Source: Pirellulales bacterium
Lineage (GTDB): Bacteria; Planctomycetota; Planctomycetia; Pirellulales; Lacipirellulaceae
NCBI GenBank assembly: GCA_016930815.1
Contig: JAFGFZ010000345.1
Span: 1 to 42,394 of the forward strand
Direction of reading: 5' to 3'
Length of the DNA stretch: 42,394 nt
A program made the translations under genes and the position numbers. Each line of letters opens with the position of its first letter. Position 1 is the stretch's first letter. Below, piece by piece: positions 14,000 through 16,624 of this stretch. The notes under the pieces were generated by a model that did no database searches, was not told where the DNA came from, and worked only from the letters and a program-made list of their open reading frames with translations.

Positions 14000-15070
14000 C
14001 TACTCGGGTTTCCTCCGGGCGGTGATCCAGTAAAAAACCTTTCCCGCTTCGTCCACGCGGACTTCACCCTTCAGCTTGGCCTGAGAGAGAATGGAATCAA
14101 GCACCCGTTTGTAATAGGTCCGCCCGGCTGGGAAGCGGACTTTGATTTGGTCCGGATGGATATTCCGTTCGGCCAATGCCGAGTGATCAAATAAAAAAGG
14201 GGCATCGATTCGTTCCCGCAGGGCATTGAGTGCCTCGGTCAGGGTATACCCTTCGATCTGGACGTTGATCTGTTCGAACAGGATCGGCAGCGCCCCCCTT
14301 AGCTGGCCGGCCGGTTCGTGGCCAGGCGACCAGCATTCCATGCCGTCTGGCGCGTTTTTATGATTCGCCGCGATTTCGAAAACATGGTGTTTCAACCGTC
14401 CTTGTTCGATCGCCGGTCGAAATGCAAGGCCTTCGTGGCGGAGAAGAACCGCCAGGCCGGTACCGGCCGAAAATCCCTTCATTTCGTCGATGGACCGCCG
14501 CCGTTCGAGGGCGACTTCGGCACGGGGGTCCACATCGATCGGGAGCCTGAACATGGCCCTGAGCTGCTTGATCAAATCGACCAGCGGCCGGTCCTTGGTT
14601 TCGAATTCAATGGTTCGAATCAGGTCGGAATGGATTTGATTGAATTGTTTTTCCGTGAGACCGAATGTGCCCCGCGGCGCTGTCGCGCCATCAATCCCCT
14701 GCTCGGCAAGCCGTGTGAGATACCTCCTGAATGCCTCCATATCCTGCCGCGCGAAGGTAGCACCGGTTAGTTGAAGCCGATCGTTGTGTGTGAGAACTCC
14801 AACGACCTTATAGTACCCAGGCTGGCCATGACGTTCCGTGATACTAGGCGATTCGCCTTCTCGGGCCTGGCGGAGCCGGAGCCCGCCCAGTTTTTCATCT
14901 TTGAGATATTCATACCACCGCCGCTGAGCCATCACGTCGGATGATGGAATCGTGGCGATTTCGAGTTCGATCCTCGATAACGGTTCGGCCGCTGCCGCAA
15001 GGGGCCCTAAAATGCAAAGAAAGAAAACCGCCAGCCCGTAATCAACTCGCTGAGTCATGTCATTTCCCAT
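14000..15070 (-). CDS. Secreted protein with possible secretin/TonB-like short domain
   Basis: 356 residues of unknown function. The first about 30 residues form a signal peptide (hydrophobic core AVFFLCILGPLAAAA before EPLS), so the protein is exported. The last about 80 residues (EALNALRERIDAPFLFDHSAL... then a V/F-rich strand ending near YWIT) resemble the small beta-alpha-beta domains called STN that are found at the start of secretins and TonB receptors; this is a weak resemblance from pattern only. The middle contains a segment FRLPIDVDPRAEV of the same flavour. Two ATGs are possible (15070 and 15058, four codons apart); the second has GGGA seven bases upstream, the first is listed. It lies 155 bases upstream of the CorA-like gene on the same strand. 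Confidence 0.72.
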   Translation of the reverse strand: MGNDMTQRVDYGLAVFFLCILGPLAAAAEPLSRIELEIATIPSSDVMAQRRWYEYLKDEKLGGLRLRQAREGESPSITERHGQPGYYKVVGVLTHNDRLQLTGATFARQDMEAFRRYLTRLAEQGIDGATAPRGTFGLTEKQFNQIHSDLIRTIEFETKDRPLVDLIKQLRAMFRLPIDVDPRAEVALERRRSIDEMKGFSAGTGLAVLLRHEGLAFRPAIEQGRLKHHVFEIAANHKNAPDGMECWSPGHEPAGQLRGALPILFEQINVQIEGYTLTEALNALRERIDAPFLFDHSALAERNIHPDQIKVRFPAGRTYYKRVLDSILSQAKLKGEVRVDEAGKVFYWITARRKPE

Positions 15071-15239
15071 GGGATTCCCGATTCAAAGAAATTCTACTGA
15101 CCGTTTCTTTATCTAGCGGAGTTCCGCGATCGGCTGGGCCATTGGCAAATAGTATTCTTACCTAAAGTATTGAATTAACACCACTGATTGCAAGAACTGT
15201 TAGGGACATGCTAGGATGCCAGGTGTGTGGAACGACCTA

Positions 15240-15343
15240 GTGCTCTGTCAACTTTCCATCTTGGGGGAGCCACGGTCGATAGACCGTGGCATATCGCCCT
15301 CTGACGAGCACAGTGATCCCAAATCTTAAACTTGACGGAGCAC
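15240..15343. mobile_element. MITE-like element with TA-flanked terminal inverted repeats
   Basis: The left end GTGCTCTGTCAA (15240-15251) is inverted as TTGACGGAGCAC (15332-15343), one mismatch in 12. Both ends are flanked by TA (15238-15239 and 15344-15345), and the flanking C and G extend the match to CTAG...CTAG. The inside holds a perfect 9-bp hairpin, GCCACGGTC/GACCGTGGC around GATA (15269-15290), and a third inverted copy of the end, TGACGAGCAC, at 15302-15311. TA target duplication and short terminal repeats are typical of IS630/Tc1-mariner-type elements; at 104 bp there is no room for a transposase, so it would be mobilised in trans. Family assignment is inferred. Confidence 0.65.
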
Positions 15344-15360
15344 TAGGCTCATTTCATAAC
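15332..15360 (+). promoter_or_regulatory. Possible hybrid promoter formed by the MITE end, for dapL
   Basis: TTGACG (15332-15337, five of six bases of the -35 consensus) lies inside the right terminal repeat. A 17-base spacer leads to CATAAC (15355-15360, four of six) in the flanking DNA. A start about seven bases later would give dapL a leader of about 25 bases. Sequence prediction only. Confidence 0.4.
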
Positions 15361-15391
15361 GACACACTGAATTCTTTCCTATTATTTGATC

Positions 15392-16624
15392 ATGGCCGAT
15401 CCCTATTTCCAAGATCGATTCGCGGACCGGATTGGCGGGGCCCGGTTCGGCAAAGAGACTGAAATATATAAGTTTGAGAAGATCAAACGGGCGAAGCGCC
15501 GCGTTTTGGCCGAGCATCCGGATCGCCGGCTCTTGGATTTCGGGATCGGTGAGAACGATGCAATGGCCCCTGAACCGATCCGCCGGATTCTGAGTGAAGA
15601 AGCCGGCCGGCCGGAGAACCGCGGCTATGCCGACAACGGGATTACCGAATTCAAGGAGGCGGCCGCACGGTTCATGGAACGGAATTTTGGCGTCTTTCTC
15701 GATCCGGTGACTCAGGTCAACCACTGCATCGGGACCAAGTCCGCTCTAGCCATGTTCCCGGCCGCATGGATCAATCCAGGCGATGTCACATTGATTACCG
15801 TCCCTGGGTACCCAATCGCCGCGACCCACACACGGTACTATGGTGGCACGGTCCATTCCTTGCCGCTGGTCGCGGAAAGAGATTTTTTCCCCGATTTGGA
15901 TTCCATACCGGGCGATATCCTGGCGCGGGCCAAGTTGCTGGTCCTGAATTATCCAAACAGCCCGACCGGCAAGACAGCCACACCCGACTTCTACGCCCAT
16001 GTCGTCGATTTCGCCCATCAGCACCGGCTCGTTGTGATCCAGGACGCCGCGCATGCCATGCTCAGTTACGACCGGCCGCCCACCAGTTTCTTAGCTACCC
16101 CTGGCGCGATCGACGTGGGTGTGGAACTCCATTCGATGTCCAAAGGTTTTAACATGATCGGATGGAGGATCGGCTGGATCTGCGGACATGCACGACTTGT
16201 CCACGCGTTTGCTGACATCAAGGACAACTGCGATTCTGGCCAGTTTATTCCAATTCAAAAGGCGGCTGCCGCCGCACTCGACGACGATACCATCCATCAA
16301 GGGATCCGCGATAAGTACCACCGCCGGCTGGAAAAACTTGTCTCAGTACTCCAGCGGTGCGGATTCACTTGCCAGATGCCCGGCGGATCGTACTTCCTCT
16401 ATACGCGGGCGCCATCGAAACGGGGCAATGCGACCTTTGCCTCGGCTGAAGAGGTGAGCCAGTTCCTGATTGCCGAGCAATCGATCTGCACCGTGCCGTG
16501 GGACGACGCGGGGCCGTACCTGCGGTTCTCGGTCACATACGAAGCCGCCGATGGGACGGGCGAGGACTCCCTGATGGCCGAACTCGAAGCACGCATGCAA
16601 AAACTCCATCTGGCTTGGGAATAG
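15392..16624 (+). CDS. dapL: LL-diaminopimelate aminotransferase
   Basis: 410 residues, PLP-dependent fold type I aminotransferase. DapL converts tetrahydrodipicolinate directly to LL-diaminopimelate with glutamate as amino donor, the lysine/peptidoglycan route known from plants, chlamydiae and other bacteria. Family blocks are visible: LLDFGIGENDAMAP near residue 50, the RGYADNGITEFKEA block, and the PLP lysine Lys251 in SMSKGFNMIGWRIGW, with LNYPNSPTGK and DAAHAML as cofactor-binding segments. Start chosen at ATG 15392 (MADPYFQDRFADRIGG); an in-frame TTG at 15386 is less likely. There is no clear ribosome site upstream, suggesting a short or leaderless-type start. It stands alone on the plus strand, with a MITE-like element ending 46 bases before it. 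A related aminotransferase is the main alternative. Confidence 0.85.
   Translation: MADPYFQDRFADRIGGARFGKETEIYKFEKIKRAKRRVLAEHPDRRLLDFGIGENDAMAPEPIRRILSEEAGRPENRGYADNGITEFKEAAARFMERNFGVFLDPVTQVNHCIGTKSALAMFPAAWINPGDVTLITVPGYPIAATHTRYYGGTVHSLPLVAERDFFPDLDSIPGDILARAKLLVLNYPNSPTGKTATPDFYAHVVDFAHQHRLVVIQDAAHAMLSYDRPPTSFLATPGAIDVGVELHSMSKGFNMIGWRIGWICGHARLVHAFADIKDNCDSGQFIPIQKAAAAALDDDTIHQGIRDKYHRRLEKLVSVLQRCGFTCQMPGGSYFLYTRAPSKRGNATFASAEEVSQFLIAEQSICTVPWDDAGPYLRFSVTYEAADGTGEDSLMAELEARMQKLHLAWE

Follow-up and report, generated by a model that had tools for sequence, protein, structure and literature searches.

The window, i.e. the whole 42,394-nucleotide stretch of Pirellulales bacterium DNA that was analysed, contains a 104-bp non-coding element (15240-15343) with a TA dinucleotide on each side, situated in the divergent intergenic stretch between the gene for a 356-aa protein and that for an LL-diaminopimelate aminotransferase, and this raises the question whether it is a mobile element and, if so, of which family. 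The 356-aa neighbour (14000-15070, minus strand) has a signal-peptide-like start and matched no Pfam or NCBIfam family; the ATG of the aminotransferase gene lies about 46 bp downstream of the element. With its flanks, the element (15237-15346) reads C-TA-GTGCTCTGTCAACTTT ... AAACTTGACGGAGCAC-TA-G, with CTAG at either edge, and its parts are as follows:

15238..15239, no strand: left flanking TA, forming CTAG with C at 15237 and G at 15240; C precedes the TA in 19 of 19 copies
15240..15255, plus strand: left terminal inverted repeat GTGCTCTGTCAACTTT, corresponding to the 3' end of IS630-type elements
15261..15267, plus strand: left subterminal box TTGGGGG (family form TTGGGGT), the box end lying about 30 bp inside the TA; this 30-nt spacing is mostly fixed
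15269..15290, no strand: internal hairpin with a perfect 9-bp stem and the loop GATA, its palindrome nearly confined to element copies genome-wide
15302..15311, no strand: weak, degenerate third end copy, TGACGAGCAC, which lacks one base
15316..15322, minus strand: right subterminal box, TTGGGAT
15328..15343, minus strand: right terminal inverted repeat, GTGCTCCGTCAAGTTT
15344..15345, no strand: right flanking TA, a probable target-site duplication; the next base is G in 17 of 19 copies and A in 2 of 19

The preliminary description had proposed 15-base ends that are inverted copies with one difference, TA on both sides, a 9-bp internal hairpin and a third copy of the end sequence. The first three were confirmed: the 15-mers CTAGTGCTCTGTCAA (15237-15251) and TTGACGGAGCACTAG (15332-15346) are inverted with one mismatch, both TAs flank the 104 bp, and the hairpin consists of GCCACGGTC-GATA-GACCGTGGC with a perfect stem. 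Moreover, the inverted repeat extends to 20 nt at 90% identity (15236-15255 and 15328-15347) and is the sole inverted repeat in 801 bp. The third copy was the weakest part of that description, as TGACGAGCAC matches TGACGGAGCAC minus one base when a gap is admitted, and does not stand out in an ungapped comparison.

Mobility was indicated by the genome itself, an assembly of 5.55 Mb in 528 contigs that is 89% complete. A BLAST search with the element gave 32 matches, about 22 of them spanning most of its length. Besides partial copies, 19 copies could be bounded, 16 of which measure exactly 104 bp between the TAs and the others 103, 105 and 107 bp. All copies occupy different sites, and their flanks are unrelated beyond the C before the left TA (19/19) and the G after the right TA (17/19); TA is found on both sides in 11 of the 19 bounded copies, one side being altered in the other eight. 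The search for further copies suggested in the preliminary description thus revealed a dispersed family. The closest copy pairs are 97% identical, and the window copy is 91% identical to the copy nearest to it and diverges by about 7% from the consensus (93.5% identity), so that it is not a recent insertion. Gene disruption was considered for the copies in L022 and L006 and rejected, the candidate spanning frames being separate or complete genes.

The same tips occur on other short elements of this genome, of at least two kinds. A second kind of miniature inverted-repeat element (MITE), 107 bp from TA to TA, has the tips TAGTGCTTTGTCAT and TAGTGCTTTGACAA and an unrelated interior (L068 464-570; L069 442-548; L070 460-566; L077 1760-1866). 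Further elements (L071 1021-1174, L073 493-617 and L072 6500-6654) have these tips with palindromes such as GTTCGCTCCGCGAAC inside, those at L071 and L073 being 125-154 bp long.

The family assignment comes from autonomous elements in related genomes. L116 of genome G117 contains an element of 1,228 bp, both flanking TAs included, with the ends TAGTGCTTTGTCAA and TAGTGCTTTGTCAC, in longer form TAGTGCTTTGTCAATTTTTAATTTTAGGGT and TAGTGCTTTGTCACGCTTAGGAATTAGGGT. Its two overlapping frames code for a 147-aa helix-turn-helix (HTH) protein and a 231-aa DDE_3 protein, of which the DDE_3 protein matches the NCBIfam model transpos_IS630 above the cut-off. Since the two frames overlap at a run of eight A, a frameshift is likely, as has been documented in the IS630 family (PMC5009743). 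Homologues of this transposase were retrieved from 22 of the 147 genomes of the order, and named homologues come from many phyla, among them planctomycetes, cyanobacteria, acidobacteria and Bacteroidota. Residues D44, D127 and E169 are invariant across 11 aligned transposases of this type and would fit a DDE triad. Most of the homologous elements are about 1.22 kb long, with C-TA-GTGC... tips and a subterminal box at both ends, which differ slightly (ATTTTGGGGTAGA at the 3' end and AAATTGGGGTTG at the 5' end). The MITE's left end appears to be closer to the 3' version and its right end, AAATTTGGGGTAA, closer to the 5' version, a pattern that internal deletion of such an element would be expected to leave. 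Related genomes therefore do contain the full-length IS630-family elements to which the preliminary description had pointed; their ends match those of the MITE at the family level, over the tip and the subterminal box.

An autonomous element with exactly the ends of the MITE (CTCTGTCAACTTTCC...) was not found, nor was a transposase of the L116 group found in its own 89%-complete assembly. A partner transposase in the same genome is usual for an IS630-type MITE, although not obligatory. Its absence was not treated as excluding this origin, because the assembly is fragmented into 528 contigs and 89% complete, and MITEs can outlive their partner. The only DDE_3 transposase of the assembly belongs to an IS630-type element (L060, about 430-1625), which has perfect 15-bp ends, ATGACCGAGCGCGAT, and also lies beside TA; on account of those ends it was rejected as the partner.

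CTAG at both edges of most copies could also mean that the MITE belongs to another family, of the IS5 type, which duplicates the 4 bp CTAG; in that case the element itself would begin and end one base further in. However, the DDE_3 transposase encoded by the autonomous elements that share these ends is of the IS630 family, and IS630 itself reportedly prefers the TA within CTAG, as the title of the 1991 work by Tenzen and Ohtsubo (in the references of PMC2170065) has it. A precedent for the 4-bp duplication is MITEPsy1, listed as possibly IS5-type, which duplicates CTAG or YTAA (PMC3189936), whereas for IS630-type elements the target is TA and the duplication 2 bp (PMC2170065). Another family is thus very improbable, and the IS630 assignment is retained.

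The end signature turned out to be shared well beyond this genome. Of the 147 genomes of the order, 32 contain the 15-mer CTAGTGCTYYGTCAA, with a maximum of 30 occurrences in one genome, against a near-silent control with the reversed pattern (once or twice in a few genomes). At these sites lie many more short elements that share the tips and in most cases have a TTGGGGT-like box about 24 bp inwards; their interiors are many, mutually unrelated and often provided with hairpins. The shared signature is C-TA-GTGCTYYGTCAa followed by the TTGGGGT-like box about 24 bp in, and the base preceding TA was C in 80 of 85 further edges examined. A strict tip-plus-box pattern matched two genomes within the own order and none in a sample of the rest of the phylum, a distribution that only hints at the range, as this pattern misses most variants. 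The exact 27-bp end pattern had no match in a collection of 84,980 species, from which the own genome may have been left out, and the whole element had none in the plasmids and phages searched. An order-wide group of small elements is hereby added to planctomycete genomes, and the occurrence of one end signature of about 30 bp on several unrelated interiors and on a widespread IS630 subgroup defines what the transposase must recognise.

Other arrangements of these tips were encountered as well. Very short elements of about 44 bp, barely more than two tips and lacking the subterminal box (L109 2892-2935, L124 114-157 and L110 134-176), possibly represent the lower size limit. Adjoining elements share one CTAG at L107 (2819-2936) and L112 (156-367), one having inserted in the flanking CTAG of the other. 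A lone tip with the same upstream flank at two places (L067 3492-3505 and L085 2510-2523) appears to be an old duplicated remnant; the gene pair just downstream of one of these tips reads as NuoE/NuoF-like.

Comparison with an empty site, which the preliminary description had proposed, was possible for a sister MITE with the same ends in genome G017 (L114 2583-2689), as the element is missing at the same place in three congeners. Its right edge lands exactly on the stop codon of a gene that reads as motA-like: the G017 protein ends in ...GEAA, its TAG stop consisting of the flanking TA and the first base of the element, and the congeners' proteins end in ...EAA, ...EAA and ...QAA, with the stops TAA, TAA and TAG, respectively. 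One junction is hence exact at the stop-codon TA, and the other side has diverged, so that this pair does not prove the TA duplication itself. For the window copy no empty site was obtained, because no other genome represents its genus and its surroundings are not conserved; in the 29 relatives' loci examined, the aminotransferase never had the 356-aa protein as its neighbour. A further empty-site comparison, with L113, was overwhelmed by another, unrelated repeat, a palindromic sequence of about 80 bp (L113 985-1063) that occurs in high copy number and gave over 70 matches in G004 and likewise in G140.

The strength of the fold suggests a different kind of explanation, namely that the element is a structured RNA or a regulatory element (terminator, attenuator or promoter) of the divergent neighbours, kept for its fold. 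The single strand folds far more strongly than shuffled sequences (z = -8.3 as RNA and -7.4 as DNA), the element lies about 46 bp upstream of the aminotransferase ATG, and its tips, read outward, give TTGACA and TTGACG, a -35-like hexamer. Yet -10-like matches for outward hybrid promoters were no better in the flanks than in shuffled flanks, a promoter and terminator scan gave no such site in 15071-15420, and Rfam had no match in the window at the gathering threshold. Changes on both sides of a pair affected just 4 of 31 consensus pairs, too few to support an RNA by hairpin covariation. Among the copies, the hairpin arms vary by 6%, versus 11.5% for the rest of the middle, which could be explained by a weak or minor role of the hairpin or by gene conversion. 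Furthermore, the copies adjoin unrelated genes, and relatives possess the aminotransferase without the element. Presence at the same site in all relatives with no other copies had been named in the preliminary description as favouring an RNA or a regulator; the element was instead absent from the 39 relatives searched (24 of the same family and 15 of the same order). The dispersed copies with their precise ends largely refute this explanation, which is therefore regarded as highly unlikely. Finally, a REP or palindromic repeat of the RAYT type, of which the perfect internal palindrome would be the unit and the ends incidental, might be suspected given another high-copy palindromic repeat in relatives of G017, but is contradicted by the distribution of the palindrome, which in the own genome is found almost solely within full element copies, whereas the ends occur with many other interiors, leaving it a negligible chance.

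Consequently, the element is considered a 104-bp non-autonomous MITE of the IS630 (IS630/Tc1/mariner) family, with a probability of about 0.95. The Tc1/IS630-like nature put forward in the preliminary description is borne out by direct observation of dispersed copies, of their fixed length and ends, of their CTAG sites and of autonomous IS630 elements in related genomes whose ends are of the same kind. An IS630 transposase would have worked in trans, binding the ends of about 30 bp (the 12-16-bp tip plus the TTGGGGT box), excising the element and inserting it at the TA of a CTAG, with duplication of the TA; the interior would be only a spacer with a hairpin. In agreement with such a course, the IS630-type transposase of ISY100 alone cuts the ends of its element and inserts it at TA with the TA duplicated (PMC2170065). 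The cognate transposase would have been lost from the genome or be missing from the assembly, so that the window copy, about 7% off the consensus, is probably an old, resident insertion; an IS630 partner would be expected to end in TAGTGCTCTGTCAACTTTCCATCTTGGGGT. There is no demonstrated effect of this copy on the neighbouring genes.

The landing sites may in part account for how such elements are tolerated. Because insertion takes place in CTAG and the element has G as its first and C as its last base, CTAG is restored on both sides and a TAG stop codon on either strand survives the insertion, leaving the encoded protein unchanged. Such stops were found at the edges of several elements:

L006: edge TAG is the stop of a complete PGK gene
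L022: edge TAG is the stop of a CsrA-domain frame
L077: edge TAG is the stop of a redoxin gene
L072: edge TAG is the stop of a sulfatase gene
L069: edge TAG is the stop of an IS200-like transposase gene
L011: edge TAGs are the stops of both convergent neighbours, FolD and a SpoU-type methylase

When open frames of at least 150 codons were counted in the own genome, 6 of 26 elements lay on a stop, versus 23 of 351 background CTAG sites (Fisher p = 0.009; p = 0.028 and p = 0.023 at cut-offs of 100 and 200 codons), and in other genomes this was the case for 7 of 85 edges versus 29 of 742 background sites (p = 0.066). This modest enrichment is suggestive only, since the test was made after the cases had been seen. 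In the own genome CTAG occurs at only about a quarter of the expected frequency (0.98 versus 3.83 per kb). A literature search of incomplete coverage found no earlier description of stop-codon landing by such elements. It is tentatively proposed, at somewhat less than even odds, that the CTAG-targeting IS630-type group uses TAG stops as harmless landing sites, the survivors being enriched by selection or by targeting. If true, this would help to explain the persistence of so many families in compact, CTAG-poor genomes, and it offers a simple, testable reason for the little damage done by such elements.

Compared with known systems, the MITE is an ordinary kind of element, not known before as a member of the RUP/IS630-Spn1-like kind. 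RUP of Streptococcus pneumoniae, which is thought to be mobilised in trans by IS630-Spn1, is likewise non-coding, about 107 bp long and located at TA, with ends resembling those of an IS630-family element (PMC2229807). It differs in sequence and host phylum, its inverted repeat measures 9 bp versus 16-20 bp in the window MITE, and its partner IS occurs in the same species, whereas the partner of the MITE was not found in its own genome. Similarly, MITEPlu5 of Photorhabdus, related to ERIC/MITEEc1, is an IS630-related MITE of 123 bp that is flanked by TA and predicted to form a very strong secondary structure (PMC6267812), but it has about 450-550 copies and CCC-type ends, as against about 20 copies and GTGCTCYGTCAA ends. 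The IS630 elements with TAGTGCTYTGTCAC-like ends (Planctomycetales bacterium 10988, G117) share with the MITE the terminal 12-14 bp, the TTGGGGT-like box and the C-TA-G site, although they are about 1.22 kb long, contain one or more transposase ORFs, have interiors unrelated to that of the MITE, and often have C or G at position 14 from the TA, where the MITE has A. Lastly, ISY100 of Synechocystis belongs to the same IS630/Tc1/mariner family, and its cut-and-paste transposition with TA duplication has been shown in vitro (PMC2170065); unlike the MITE it is autonomous, and it serves only as a mechanistic model.
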